The notes under the pieces are model-generated. The model had not been told where the DNA came from. It did not search any database and was given only the letters and a program-made list of their open reading frames with translations. DNA of 64,000 nt. It comes from Oscillospiraceae bacterium (GTDB lineage Bacteria; Bacillota; Clostridia; Oscillospirales; Acutalibacteraceae). The DNA is taken from NCBI GenBank assembly GCA_015065965.1, contig SVPH01000006.1, positions 1 through 64,000 on the forward strand, in the 5' to 3' direction. The position numbers were made by a program, and so were the translations under genes. This document shows positions 55,459 through 60,266 of this stretch, one piece after another (position 1 is the first letter of the stretch; each line of letters starts with the position of its first letter).

Positions 55459-55487
55459 TTGAAAAAATATTGCATTTGGAATATAAT
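55459..55487 (+). promoter_or_regulatory. Promoter of the small DUF6514-like gene
   Basis: TTGAAA at 55459, 17 bases, TATAAT at 55482. A perfect inverted repeat GTGACG-CAT-CGTCAC (55490-55504) lies right after the -10 box, around the expected start of transcription, and could be an operator. Confidence 0.7.
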
Positions 55488-55523
55488 ATGTGACGCATCG
55501 TCACTTCGACGTGAAAAGGGGTT

Positions 55524-55730
55524 ATGAAATTGTATAAAATGCAATGTAAAGAAATTGAGATAGAAGGAGAATCGCGAACGCTTTGCGGCATATCGGATGA
55601 GAGCGGTTTTTTCTGCGAATTTACTGATGATTTAGAAGAGGCGCATAGAACCGTTGAACTCCTCAACAAAAATAAGATCGAGCCTTGTCATGTTTATGAT
55701 ATTATTGAGGATTTGTTCTATTCGGGATGA
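55524..55730 (+). CDS. Small DUF6514-like protein
   Basis: 68 aa. MKLYKMQCKEIEIEGESRTL start, then CGISDESGFFCEFTDDLEEAHRTVELLNKN. Resembles small Clostridia proteins of the DUF6514 group. AAAAGGGG precedes the ATG. Has its own promoter with an adjacent inverted repeat. Function unknown. Confidence 0.65.
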   Translation: MKLYKMQCKEIEIEGESRTLCGISDESGFFCEFTDDLEEAHRTVELLNKNKIEPCHVYDIIEDLFYSG

Positions 55731-55796
55731 GATAATTGAAACAAAAAATTCTGAAAAACAAATAAAAAATAATTTAAAAAATTTTTGAAAAAACCC

Positions 55797-55825
55797 TTGA
55801 CAATACCATTCTACTTTGCTATAAT
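55797..55825 (+). promoter_or_regulatory. Promoter of the tRNA-Leu genes
   Basis: TTGACA at 55797, 17 bases, TATAAT at 55820, a consensus promoter 30 bases before the first tRNA-Leu. Confidence 0.88.
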
Positions 55826-55854
55826 AGGCAACGTTCCGAGCGAACAAAAGATAT

Positions 55855-55938
55855 GCGAGAGTGGCGGAATCGGCAGACGCGCACGTTTGAGCGGCGTGTG
55901 GTAATCCCGTACGGGTTCAAGTCCCGTCTCTCGCACCA
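55855..55938 (+). tRNA. tRNA-Leu (GAG)
   Basis: Acceptor GCGAGAG pairs with CTCTCGC, followed by A and CCA. The D-arm tggcggaatcggcagacgc is typical of tRNA-Leu. The anticodon loop reads TTGAGCG between CACGT and GCGTG, so the anticodon is GAG. Position 37 would be C, unusual since a purine is the rule. T-arm ACGGG TTCAAGT CCCGT. Confidence 0.88.
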
Positions 55939-55939
55939 G

Positions 55940-55968
55940 GAGGATTCCGCAAGGAATCCTCTTTTTAA
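55940..55968 (+). terminator. Hairpin between the two tRNA-Leu genes
   Basis: GAGGATTCC and GGAATCCTC with a GCAA tetraloop, then TTTTT. It would end the first tRNA transcript, so the second tRNA may have its own weak promoter or be read through. Confidence 0.85.
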
Positions 55969-56039
55969 TAAGCGGAATTAAGCACAGTGCTCCGCCTCGG
56001 CTGCCCGACCGTGTAAAATTTACGGGCAAAACAGAATAT

Positions 56040-56126
56040 GCGGATATGGCGGAATTGGCAGACGCGTTAGATTCAGGTTCTAATGAATGCAAGTTCGTGC
56101 AGGTTCAAGTCCTGTTATCCGCACCA
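56040..56126 (+). tRNA. tRNA-Leu (CAG)
   Basis: Acceptor GCGGATA pairs with TATCCGC, then A and CCA. Anticodon stem TTAGA/TCTAA encloses TTCAGGT, giving CAG. The variable arm is long, as expected for Leu. The track ORF 55811-56092 on the minus strand is a false ORF across both tRNAs. Confidence 0.92.
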
Positions 56127-56133
56127 TAGTACT

Positions 56134-56176
56134 AATGCCGTATTGATACAATTTGTGTCGATATGGCATTTTTTTC
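56134..56176 (+). terminator. Terminator after tRNA-Leu (CAG)
   Basis: AATGCCGTATTGATACA and TGTCGATATGGCATT pair with some G-U pairs, then T7. Confidence 0.8.
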
Positions 56177-56273
56177 TTTATAAATCTTCAATTATAACAC
56201 ATCTGCTGTACTGATTAATGTACTTTTGATATGTTATAATTTTGCTCATCAAATTATAAAAAGGAGATTTATA

Positions 56274-56639
56274 ATGGAAAACAGAATTGTTATTTATCAA
56301 ATTTTTAACGGAGAAACAACACCTCTGCCCGAAAGAACACCGCAAGAGAAAATTGAAATTGCGTGTGCCGAAATGGTTGGCGGAGTGTATTTCACAACAG
56401 CAAAAGAACTTGAAGAATATGTTGAAAAAACAAGAAATGAAAAGTATTTGAGAAAGCAGAAAATGAGGGCATACAGAGAGAATTGCGGACTTTTGATTGA
56501 TGAAGCCGCAACCTTGCTCGGAATATCAAAAACATACCTTGTTAAAATTGAAAACGGTGAAAAAGACCCGACTCTCGAATTAGCCTTGAAAATCGCAAAG
56601 TTTTATAAAACAACGGTTGATGAATTGTTTGTAACATGA
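56274..56639 (+). CDS. XRE-family regulator
   Basis: 121 aa from ATG 56274 (AAAAGGAG upstream; the track start 56226 lies earlier). The C-terminal half is a helix-turn-helix: MRAYRENCGLLIDEAATLLGISKTYLVKIENGEK in part, of HTH_3 type. The N-terminal 55 residues may be an effector or interaction part. An extended -10 promoter (TGTTATAAT at 56232-56240) lies upstream. It leads a three-gene operon with an Mrr-like nuclease and a HEPN-like protein, so it is likely its regulator. Confidence 0.8.
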   Translation: MENRIVIYQIFNGETTPLPERTPQEKIEIACAEMVGGVYFTTAKELEEYVEKTRNEKYLRKQKMRAYRENCGLLIDEAATLLGISKTYLVKIENGEKDPTLELALKIAKFYKTTVDELFVT

Positions 56640-56682
56640 TACAATATAAGAAATTATTTTATTTTGCGAAGGCGGCTGTTGT

Positions 56683-57297
56683 ATGCGAAAAAAAGATGAT
56701 TTATGGATGGGATTTCTTGTAATCGCAGGAATCCCTTTGCTTCTTATTTTAGAATATCCATTTGAGTTGTTGATAATATTGATAGCTATTGCTTTGATTA
56801 TCGTTTTAGCATTATTAATAAAAAATAGTGAAGGTCCTAGAAGATTAAAAAAAGCAAACAAGTTATCAGCGGCAACAAGCAAATCAGAAATTAAAATAGG
56901 TGTGTATAATCAACTTGAGATTATAGACGCAATGAAAGGTTCAGAATTTGAGACATTCGTTGTAGAATTGTTAAAATGTAATGGTTTTTCTAACGTTTCT
57001 CAAACCAAATTAAGCGGAGATTTTGGTGTTGATGTTATTGGATTTAAAGATAACAAAAAATACGTTTTTCAATGTAAACGATTTAAGGGGAAATTGGGGC
57101 TAAAACCCATTCAAGAAGCATATGCAGGAAAGAGGCATTATCGAGCAGATGAAGCAGTGGTTGTTACAAATTCTGAATTTACAAAAGCAGCAATGGAGCT
57201 TGCATCAGATACTGATATAATTTGTTGCGATAGAAATCAGCTAACTAAACTTTTAGAAAACTATGTCATACTAAAAAATAATATAAATGTGAAGTAA
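56683..57297 (+). CDS. Membrane-anchored Mrr-like restriction endonuclease
   Basis: 204 aa. Two hydrophobic N-terminal helices (GFLVIAGIPLLLILEYPFELLIILIAIALI in part) anchor it. The Mrr_cat domain contains GSEFETFVVELLKCNGF, then LSGDFGVDVIGF and YVFQCKRF, giving the D...QxK catalytic pattern of PD-(D/E)xK nucleases. Mrr-like enzymes cut modified DNA. It follows the XRE gene by 43 bases. A role in defence against phage DNA is inferred from family and context. Confidence 0.85.
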   Translation: MRKKDDLWMGFLVIAGIPLLLILEYPFELLIILIAIALIIVLALLIKNSEGPRRLKKANKLSAATSKSEIKIGVYNQLEIIDAMKGSEFETFVVELLKCNGFSNVSQTKLSGDFGVDVIGFKDNKKYVFQCKRFKGKLGLKPIQEAYAGKRHYRADEAVVVTNSEFTKAAMELASDTDIICCDRNQLTKLLENYVILKNNINVK

Positions 57298-57313
57298 GCA
57301 CAGGAGATGTTTT

Positions 57314-57898
57314 ATGGACGATGAGTATTTTCGAAGATATGCAAAATTACGTGAAATGGTCATGGCGTGTTATGTAGATTATACCATTTTACAAGGAATT
57401 AAGAACTATAATGATGGTTCTGATAAAACAGGAAAAACACCAAACTGTTTTTTTGGAATAATCAATCATCATTGCATATTGACAAAAGAACATTTGGCTT
57501 TAACTTTGTGGAAATTAACTGACACTCAGGATAAATCAAACACGCTTGTTACACTTAACACATACTTAAGAAAAGAATATAAAGTGAATATTCCTATTCT
57601 GTCAAAAGATAATAGAGAATATCGTGACAAACAACTTACGCCAATACGAAAAAAGATGCTTGCACATAATGATATAGAGAATAGTGGTGTTGTGCTGTAT
57701 ATTGATGAACTTTTCAAGTATTTAGAAGATGTAAAAAAAGCTTTGAATAACCTGTGCTTAGAAAAGATTGATGATCGAGTAAAGCCGATATTGGACACTG
57801 AAATTTTTAATATGGGAGCAAGCTATCAAATCAATCAACATTTGATGTATTTACATCTTTCTGCTTTATATGAAGATGATGCAGGAGATTCAAACTGA
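57314..57898 (+). CDS. AbiU2/HEPN-like protein
   Basis: 194 aa, wholly helical. The segment RDKQLTPIRKKMLAHNDIE contains R-x5-H (RKKMLAH), the HEPN RNase motif, in the AbiU2-like arrangement. It starts 16 bases after the nuclease gene and ends before a terminator. HEPN proteins are common RNases in toxin-antitoxin and abortive infection systems. Assignment is by motif; the partner would be the adjacent XRE or nuclease genes. Confidence 0.65.
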   Translation: MDDEYFRRYAKLREMVMACYVDYTILQGIKNYNDGSDKTGKTPNCFFGIINHHCILTKEHLALTLWKLTDTQDKSNTLVTLNTYLRKEYKVNIPILSKDNREYRDKQLTPIRKKMLAHNDIENSGVVLYIDELFKYLEDVKKALNNLCLEKIDDRVKPILDTEIFNMGASYQINQHLMYLHLSALYEDDAGDSN

Positions 57899-57942
57899 TT
57901 TCAATAATTGTATCAAAACCGTCCATCTTTGCCAAACAGTAT

Positions 57943-57990
57943 AAATCCGAACCTTATGCCAATCGGCGAAGGGTTCGGATTTGTTCTTTT
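57943..57990 (+). terminator. Terminator of the XRE-Mrr-HEPN operon
   Basis: AAATCCGAACC and GGTTCGGATTT form an 11-pair stem with T-rich tail. Confidence 0.88.
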
Positions 57991-58054
57991 TCTGAACGGT
58001 TTATAAAATGAAAAACGAGGGTAGTTTTATCGGCTACCCTCATTTTACGTTGGT

Positions 58055-58213
58055 TTATTCTGATTGTTTAGTCTTCCACTTTTCGAAGATTGCTTTGCCT
58101 TCTTCACTTTCGCAGAAGCTGATTATGTCCGGAAGCAAGGTTCTCACCAATGCATCCATTACGTCTTCCGATATGCCCGAAATCATTTCGGACGGCTTAT
58201 TGTTTTCAGCCAC
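58055..58213 (-). CDS. Small minus-strand ORF (52 aa), hypothetical
   Basis: GTG at 58213 to TAA at 58055. The product starts MAENNKPSEMISGISEDV and ends FEKWKTKQSE, a helical acidic protein. AGGAG lies 16 bases upstream, longer than ideal. A GAGGGTAG/CTACCCTC hairpin with T-rich minus-strand flank (58017-58041) follows its stop. The plus-strand track ORF 58008-58268 is likely its shadow. Not in the ORF track because of size. Confidence 0.55.
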   Translation of the reverse strand: MAENNKPSEMISGISEDVMDALVRTLLPDIISFCESEEGKAIFEKWKTKQSE

Positions 58214-58505
58214 GGAAATTGGTTTTGTTCTCCTTTCTGAGCTTTGTCAGATAGGAGGTTCCTTATGAAAGATCATTTACTCATCTATATTTTAATTTTT
58301 TGTCAAACTTTTTTCATCGTTGCAAATCGACTGATTTTTTACAACTTGAAATTCAGCCATTAGAACAATAGAATCGCAAAATCGAGGTTACAGGTCAAAC
58401 TATACGCACTCCTCGATTACCGCACTTTCAATCCCTTATATATCAACGATTCCAAAGCCTGCTTTTTCTACGTTTTTCAAACTATTAAAAGGAGTTTTTT
58501 TATTT

Positions 58506-58763
58506 ATGATTAATAGCATTATTTCTTGTGAATTTAATATCGATACTGCCTGTGTTGAAGTCAAGCTCACCGACGGTTCAATGGTGTCAATCGACTGCAT
58601 CGCCGTTGAAAACGAATACACAAACAATATGTACGAAACATCAGAACTTGACTTTCTTATCTACAACGAGCCTATGAGTTATGTCAGACTACTGCTCAGC
58701 GGTAAGATGGAAGAATATCTGCTAAATAATACAGATTACACACCATTATCAGATATGAGATAA
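58506..58763 (+). CDS. Small DUF6061-like protein
   Basis: 85 aa after AAAAGGAG. MINSIISCEFNIDTACVEVKL, then DGSMVSIDCIAVENEY and SYVRLLLSGKMEEYL. Matches small Clostridia proteins of DUF6061 style. A 240-base gap before it has only an AATCGAGG/CCTCGATT inverted repeat (58380-58418). Function unknown. Confidence 0.65.
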   Translation: MINSIISCEFNIDTACVEVKLTDGSMVSIDCIAVENEYTNNMYETSELDFLIYNEPMSYVRLLLSGKMEEYLLNNTDYTPLSDMR

Positions 58764-58769
58764 AATTTT

Positions 58770-58812
58770 GCAGGCAACATTTATACTGAATGTTGCCTGC
58801 TATTTTTTATTT
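58770..58812 (+). terminator. Terminator after the DUF6061-like gene
   Basis: GCAGGCAACATT and AATGTTGCCTGC form a 12-pair stem, followed by TATTTTTTATTTTT. Confidence 0.9.
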
Positions 58813-58829
58813 TTAATTGAAATTCAAAA

Positions 58830-60266
58830 TCAAGTTATTTTAAATGCATGATTCATCGGACCTGAATCCTTTCCCAAATCAAGCATTGCGGAAAGAGCTC
58901 CCGAAATATAATCCTTTGCATTTCGTATTGATTCATCAAGGGATAATCCCTTAGCAAGATTTGATGCGATAGCTGACGAAAGAGTGCATCCTGTTCCATG
59001 GGTATTGGGGTTGTTTATTCTTTTGCCTTCAAACCATTTAAATTTGCCGTTTGAATAAAGAAGGTCGTTTGCATCGTTGATACTGTGCCCGCCTTTAAGC
59101 AAAACGGCACATCCGTATTTGTCTCCGATTAACTTTGCGACATTCAGCATATTTTCCTTACTCTGTATTTTTTCACCCGATAAAACTTCTGCTTCGGGAA
59201 TGTTCGGAGTTACAACCGTTGCAATCGGCAAAAGTTCCTCGATAAGAGTTTGCACCGCATCGGTTTTCATCAGTTCTGAACCGCTTGTTGCAACCATAAC
59301 GGGATCAACTACGATATTTTTGGTATTATAAAATTTCAGCCTTTCAGCAATAACAGAAATAAGTTCCGACGATGAAACCATACCGAGTTTAACTGCATCG
59401 GGATAAATATCTTCAAATACCGCATCAATTTGTTCCTTTAAAAATTCGGGTGAAGATTCGGATATTGCAAAAACGCCCATTGTGTTTTGTGCAGTCAGGG
59501 CGGTAATTGCACTCATTGCATAAACGCCATTCATAGTCATTGTTTTAATATCTGCTTGAATTCCTGCACCGCCGCTGCAATCACTTCCTGCTATTGAAAG
59601 TGCGGTTTTCATCGGAGCGGCAAATTTCCAGAATCCTTGCATATCCGTATAATCTGTTATGTAATAATCGCAAAGAGATTTTATTTCAGCCTGATTTTCT
59701 TCGGATTTATCGTAAATCGCAACCACTCTAAATCCGTCTTTCTTAGCTGTTCTTATAGCATAAATTGCATCCTCAAAAACGAATGTATCTTCTTTCGGAG
59801 TAGCAAGATGCCTTAATGCTTCACGGTATATATCGGGTTCATCCTTGCTGTGACCGACGGAGGTGCAAGTAAAGATTTCCGAAAAACATTCTTTTATTCC
59901 GCATCTTTCAAGCGCCGCTTCAACAAGATATTTGTCAGTTGCAGTCGCTATGCACATTTTCACACCGATATTGTGAAGATGCTTTATAAAATCATAAACA
60001 CCCGTTTTCAGCTGAACCTCATTTATGTAATATTTTTCAACCATACGGTTTACACCGTCCATTATTTCGTCAACCGAAAGAGTAACACCGTATTCGCTTT
60101 TATAATAACAAGCCGCATTATAAAGACTCATTGTTTTGAAGGTTTCATTCAGGTTTTCTTTCGGCTTGTATCCGATTGAACGAAGATAAATTTCACCGAT
60201 TGTGTCCCATACAAACATTGAGTCAAAAAGCGTACCGTCAAGGTCGAATATTGCACCTTTAATCAT
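58830..60266 (-). CDS. thiD: Fusion: HAD phosphatase plus HMP/HMP-P kinase ThiD
   Basis: 478 aa. Residues 1-213 are a HAD hydrolase: FDLDGTLFDS (motif I), ATATDKY (motif II), and FEDAIYAIRTAKKDG (motif IV). From residue 219 (MKTALSIAGSDCSGGAGIQAD) a complete ThiD follows, with GGHSINDANDLLY and HGTGCTLSSAIA. No Shine-Dalgarno precedes the internal ATG, so it is a true fusion. The HAD part may be a thiamine phosphate or pyrimidine phosphate phosphatase. Last gene of the thi operon, overlapping thiE by eight bases. Confidence 0.92.
   Translation of the reverse strand: MIKGAIFDLDGTLFDSMFVWDTIGEIYLRSIGYKPKENLNETFKTMSLYNAACYYKSEYGVTLSVDEIMDGVNRMVEKYYINEVQLKTGVYDFIKHLHNIGVKMCIATATDKYLVEAALERCGIKECFSEIFTCTSVGHSKDEPDIYREALRHLATPKEDTFVFEDAIYAIRTAKKDGFRVVAIYDKSEENQAEIKSLCDYYITDYTDMQGFWKFAAPMKTALSIAGSDCSGGAGIQADIKTMTMNGVYAMSAITALTAQNTMGVFAISESSPEFLKEQIDAVFEDIYPDAVKLGMVSSSELISVIAERLKFYNTKNIVVDPVMVATSGSELMKTDAVQTLIEELLPIATVVTPNIPEAEVLSGEKIQSKENMLNVAKLIGDKYGCAVLLKGGHSINDANDLLYSNGKFKWFEGKRINNPNTHGTGCTLSSAIASNLAKGLSLDESIRNAKDYISGALSAMLDLGKDSGPMNHAFKIT

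Follow-up and report, generated by a model that had tools for sequence, protein, structure and literature searches.

A 1,808-bp insertion (approximately 1.81 kb, 56126/56127–57934) was found in the window, the 64,000-nucleotide stretch of Oscillospiraceae bacterium DNA analysed here, with precise limits at the encoded CCA of a tRNA-Leu (CAG) gene on one side and that tRNA's own terminator on the other. We put the probability at roughly 70% that it is a small, recombinase-less defence cassette, resembling a cis-mobilizable element (CIME) or a satellite, which is site-specific for the 3′ CCA of tRNA-Leu (CAG) and is moved in trans. The insertion, its ends, the empty site, the shared XRE regulator, the varying cargo and the intact Mrr motif were read from the sequence.

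Two tRNA-Leu genes preceded the insertion on the forward strand: tRNA-Leu (GAG) at 55855–55938, with its own terminator, and tRNA-Leu (CAG) at 56040–56126, whose encoded 3′ CCA (56124–56126) was the insertion point. The first-pass annotation had placed the genes at an insertion point behind tRNA genes, and this held, with the cassette sitting at the CCA of the second gene. When the genus was searched with window 55480–59000, the empty site was identified in a congener (G615, locus L055), where window position 56128 was joined directly to 57932; the insert was therefore delimited as 1,808 bp, from the tRNA's CCA to a second CCA (57932–57934) that closes it on the right. In this congener, the tRNA-Leu CCA was followed immediately by TACAGTATAAATCCGAACC. 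The predicted empty-site sequence of the window locus is CACCATACAGTATAAATCC, and the predicted circle junction of the window cassette is TTGTATCAAAACCGTCCATCTTTGCC^ATAGTACTAATGCCGTATTGATACAA. The same uninserted order was observed at other tRNA-Leu genes in G614 and G603. The GC content was 31.7% in the insert, compared to 41.1% and 38.9% in the flanks.

The left end (56124–56151, on the forward strand like all window features below) consisted of CCA, 16 nt and TTGATACAA, and the right end (57908–57934) consisted of TTGTATCAA, 15 nt and CCA. TTGATACAA lay inside a terminator hairpin (56134–56170) that stands in for the displaced native terminator of tRNA-Leu (CAG) at 57934–57991. This hairpin was brought in by the insert, and the tRNA transcript can now terminate at it. 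The terminator previously assigned to the three-gene operon was accordingly reassigned: the hairpin at 57934–57991 belongs to tRNA-Leu, which it follows immediately at the G615 empty site, and the cassette's own terminator is instead the one in front of the XRE gene. Further downstream, the region of a DUF6061 ORF (58506–58763), represented by window 58372–58819 and by G000:C48, C49 and C55, was a dispersed multi-copy sequence in the genus.

Only three sizeable ORFs were present in the cassette, none of them encoding a recombinase, and they were confirmed as same-strand genes separated by short gaps. The first (56274–56639, ATG start at 56274) encoded a 121-aa XRE-type regulator (HTH_3, 6e-17) with a conserved N-terminal extension of about 60 aa, and was common to four cassettes. 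The second (56683–57297) encoded a 204-aa protein with two transmembrane segments (hydrophobic stretches within residues ~5–50) and a Mrr_cat PD-(D/E)xK nuclease domain (PF04471, E = 1e-26, 93.8 bits vs. a cutoff of 21), so both the XRE regulator and the membrane-helix Mrr-type nuclease named in the first-pass annotation were recovered. Because the active-site residues of the GVD...QxK motif are kept (D117, Q130 and K132, conserved across ten relatives), the nuclease looks catalytically intact. Compared to Mrr-type nucleases (PF04471, PADLOC PDC-S02), it has the clear Mrr domain in common, whereas the two N-terminal membrane helices are added here. Upstream of the XRE gene, a putative promoter (56190–56259) comprised an extended −10 element, TGTTATAAT, at 56232–56240 and two inverted repeats (56190–56203/56228–56241 and 56234–56259), which are candidate XRE operators. 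For the promoter claimed previously, this extended −10 element was accompanied by a poor −35, and the promoter was absent from the promoter scan list.

The third protein (194 aa, 57314–57898) is likely, although unproven, to be a HEPN protein, tentatively of a divergent AbiU2 type. The R-x5-H motif claimed for it was present (R112-x5-H118), in a segment, IRKKMLAHND, similar to IRDKLLAHND of a clear AbiU2 protein (L140), and R112 and H118 lined up with the AbiU2 R/H in a MAFFT alignment, with shuffled copies scoring as well in the profile test. While this motif segment is like that of AbiU2 HEPN proteins, the match to HEPN_AbiU2 (PF18734; E = 0.0093, 15.9 bits) was under the Pfam gathering cutoff of 26.8, and a hidden Markov model of four AbiU2 proteins did not separate the third protein from its shuffled copies. 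The AlphaFold2 model generated without an alignment had a pLDDT of 38, and searches of solved structures yielded chance matches only. No relative of the HEPN-like protein was detected in 200 family genomes, 391 class genomes, plasmids, phages, IMG/VR or a GTDB scan. The weak matches in class genomes turned out to be unrelated proteins, and the AAA_5 and FliW matches of the third protein were at chance level.

The XRE gene was detected in 4 of the 45 genus genomes, with a different cargo in each; it was absent from the family genomes searched outside the genus, and nothing was found in a GTDB scan with the XRE profile. Since the cargo differed in each of the four congeners, the XRE gene belongs to the cassette backbone, and Mrr plus HEPN are one of several interchangeable cargoes. 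XRE identity among the cassettes was 79–97%, and the upstream region was also shared (G600, G603 and G145). Downstream of the XRE gene, G145 carried an AbiLi-like ATPase (PADLOC, 1.5e-26) and then another two genes, G603 a Mrr_cat protein (5.9e-28) other than that of the window, and G600 a SAP-domain protein. The 26-nt right end of the window was also present in G145 (exact) and G603 (two mismatches), and none was found for G600. The left end was shared among the window, G145 and G600 with three or fewer mismatches; that of G603:C11 was more diverged, with CCA-N16-TTGATACAA kept. A further G603 cassette, at tRNA-Met, had both ends without XRE, and its only sizeable gene was a BspA-type LRR gene. 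At least four compact cassettes, 1.3–3.6 kb in size, had the same layout and different cargo, and some cargoes (the BspA-type LRR gene and the SAP protein) are not known defence genes.

The ends of complete cassettes read CCA-N16-TTGATACAA on the left and (T)TGTATCAA-N15-CCA on the right. When joined, they gave TTGTATCAA-N15-CC^A-N16-TTGATACAA, a partly dyad-symmetric sequence in which the 9-bp inverted arms TTGTATCAA/TTGATACAA are equidistant from the central CC^A of the circle (8/9 in G145). Arm complementarity was 21/26 in the tRNA-Met cassette (0/20000 shuffles), 16/26 in G603:C11 (7/20000), only 13/26 in the window cassette (170/20000) and 11/26 in G145 (985/20000). A short core flanked by dyad arms is the form expected of the attP of a large serine recombinase, and the joined site resembles such an attP. 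In a genus scan for CCA-N16-TTGATACAA, most matches were located at tRNA 3′ ends (Leu, Thr, Ala, Ser, Gln and Met) or recombinase gene ends, with a total close to that of a control pattern, so that the position of the matches is informative and their number is not. At 51 distinct tRNA ends, all matches with one mismatch or none occurred at offset 16; many of these loci had been preselected by the same pattern, and the tRNA-Leu ends recruited only by similarity agreed. For several tRNA-linked copies, a right end was looked for and not found. The idea that every TTGATACAA hairpin at +16 marks an inserted element was rejected: one hairpin was common to the rear of a tRNA-Ala gene in G604 and the rear of a recombinase gene in G591, and a lone left end is therefore not proof of a cassette. 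L133 (reverse strand, 161–277; G601:C57) had a left end only 90 bp from a sequence resembling a right end, with no gene between the two, as if forming an empty mini-element. Another feature, ATCCGAAC, was observed at about +10 behind the CCA of tRNA-Leu and tRNA-Val, as a variant at tRNA-Lys, and also after recombinase genes (L074, L088, L040, L041, L055, L058 and L133), and is possibly a half-site of another integrase group.

The recombinases associated with the ends were of the serine type (Resolvase/Recombinase Pfam). In G145 and G603, the cassette exactly filled the interval from the stop codon of a serine recombinase gene (489 aa; ...CACCATAG) to the terminator of that gene. Relatives of this recombinase were present in 22 of the 45 genus genomes, and nearly all those examined ended in CCA right before the terminator; the contig of an IMG/VR relative ended at the same CCA point. 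When IMG/VR was scanned with the joined-site pattern, IMGVR_UViG_2889618138_000008 was identified, in which a tRNA-Leu gene was followed by a left end of the same kind, an element with tandem serine recombinases, a right end (TTGTATCAAGTTTTGCCACCTTTGCCA) and, directly adjoining, a second element. The second element had a left and a right end of its own, and no recombinase was detected among its ORFs examined. One of two IMG/VR matches to the attP pattern (L149) was within phage coding sequence and was discarded. A right end occurred together with a tandem-type serine recombinase in L151, and a left end was located at tRNA-Leu in L205 and L207. In the L205 element (IMG/VR), which carried tandem serine recombinases at tRNA-Leu, an ORF near the left end resembled a cytosine DNA methylase by eye. 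The tandem arrangement with a recombinase-bearing neighbour was observed in G145, G603 and IMG/VR L153. The two recombinase families that are candidates for the mover shared only about 24–27% identity.

Defence-type genes were also found behind other left ends. In G604, a left end behind tRNA-Thr was followed by an XRE gene, an N6 methylase and a specificity subunit, with a right end that was only suggestive; in G603, a left end behind tRNA-Leu was followed by GmrSD and a DNA methylase, and the right end was not found. A type III-A retron was located upstream of the recombinase in G603. In G603:C11 (L112:345–2811, L054:1906–4720), the type III-A retron (PRTase and RT), the serine recombinase and the XRE-Mrr cassette occurred in a row and make up a compact array of defence genes at a single att site. 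Behind the left end at tRNA-Gln in G609 (L134:524–2188), a 555-aa protein with repeated DUF4379 treble-clef domains was encoded, with a possible nuclease segment noted by eye.

Our inference is that the window cassette serves as an anti-phage module controlled by XRE; its movement, the recombinase involved, regulation, HEPN activity and phage defence are likewise inferred. Besides its own terminator for the tRNA and the XRE regulator of its family, the cassette brings cargo that can be exchanged, in this case the membrane-anchored Mrr nuclease together with a likely HEPN RNase; it would be moved in trans by a large serine recombinase from a co-resident prophage or island. XRE would hold the cargo low until infection; Mrr may then cut DNA at the membrane, RNA may be cleaved by the HEPN protein, and phage growth would be blocked. 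A broader and tentative possibility is a serine-recombinase analogue of integrons, that is, a pool of tiny cassettes, each consisting of the common regulator plus one defence module that can be swapped; phage-encoded recombinases would move them in trans between tRNA 3′ CCA ends and the CCA-ending 3′ tails of recombinase genes.

The view in the first-pass annotation that the layout is defence-like and matches no named system was upheld. A genuine three-gene system, with XRE, Mrr and HEPN acting together, would fit the tight same-strand spacing and the frequency of nuclease and HEPN domains in defence; AbiU2-type HEPN genes also adjoined restriction-modification genes in two of the four clear cases found, and such genes have been reported in restriction-modification operons (PMC3710099). 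It is nevertheless quite improbable, as the neighbourhood survey indicated that the genes do not travel together: the XRE-HEPN pair is not conserved, the same XRE occurring with three other cargoes, Mrr relatives in the family were alone or beside unrelated genes, and a HEPN relative was found nowhere searched, by which the recurring unit proposed earlier is largely refuted.

Two further explanations concern the origin of the cassette and the role of XRE. We regard it as unlikely that the cassette is what decay has left of a larger prophage or island, no longer mobile, with the recombinase and structural genes deleted and the cargo kept by chance. The lack of a recombinase inside it and the prophage-like elements to which relatives of its ends belong are consistent with decay, but the two ends and the three ORFs are all intact, and the recurrence of the compact layout with different cargo is not readily given by random deletion. 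It is rather doubtful that XRE is a mobility or maintenance factor (in excision control, or as an antitoxin to a toxic cargo) instead of a defence regulator: the tRNA-Met cassette has the same ends without XRE, and ordinary autoregulation is suggested by the inverted repeats of its promoter. In favour of such a role are the conserved N-terminal extension and the fact that, in each of the four XRE cassettes, XRE comes directly after the left end irrespective of the cargo.

Rapid turnover of defence genes is well known, but what is exchanged can seldom be made out as clearly as here, with readable ends, an empty site, a shared regulator and different cargoes. Small plug-in units appear to be the form in which these bacteria exchange defence genes. 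Provided that the ends function as proposed, they would offer a sequence signature by which further small defence modules could be located behind tRNA genes even when their proteins are not known beforehand, and would suggest that phage recombinases help to spread anti-phage genes.

No description of such cassettes was found in the open-access literature. CIMEs keep attL and attR without integrase or transfer genes and share their site with recombinase-bearing elements, as tandem neighbours (PMC5704250). The window cassette likewise has intact attL and attR and lacks recombinase and transfer genes, whereas the present cassettes are very small (1.3–3.6 kb), several share one regulator with exchanged cargo, and their arms match a serine-recombinase site at the tRNA CCA. 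The ssrA islands of Dehalococcoides are serine-recombinase elements in tandem arrays at the 3′ end of a tRNA-like gene, some without an integration module, in which the recombinase 3′ end overlaps the att site; they use tmRNA only, with T-loop insertion, a 20-bp repeat and reductive dehalogenases as cargo (PMC3146451). The tandem arrangement with serine-recombinase elements, the members without a recombinase and the recombinase-gene 3′ end at the att site are alike, but the present cassettes use many tRNAs, share only the CCA and carry defence-type cargo. SCC and the Enterococcus cassette chromosome (CcrAB) are serine-recombinase cassettes with variable cargo, of which recombinase-less versions exist; SCC cassettes use one protein gene (rlmH) as insertion site and are much larger. 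The variable cargo and recombinase-less forms are thus alike, and site and size differ. Unlike integron cassettes, the present ones involve neither the tyrosine integrase IntI nor attC; their recombinases are of the serine type, and their ends are dyads at the tRNA CCA. The nearest known kinds are CIMEs and the recombinase-less Dehalococcoides ssrA islands, from which the present cassettes differ in being very small, in sharing one regulator while their defence-type cargo is exchanged, and in using the CCA ends of many tRNAs.
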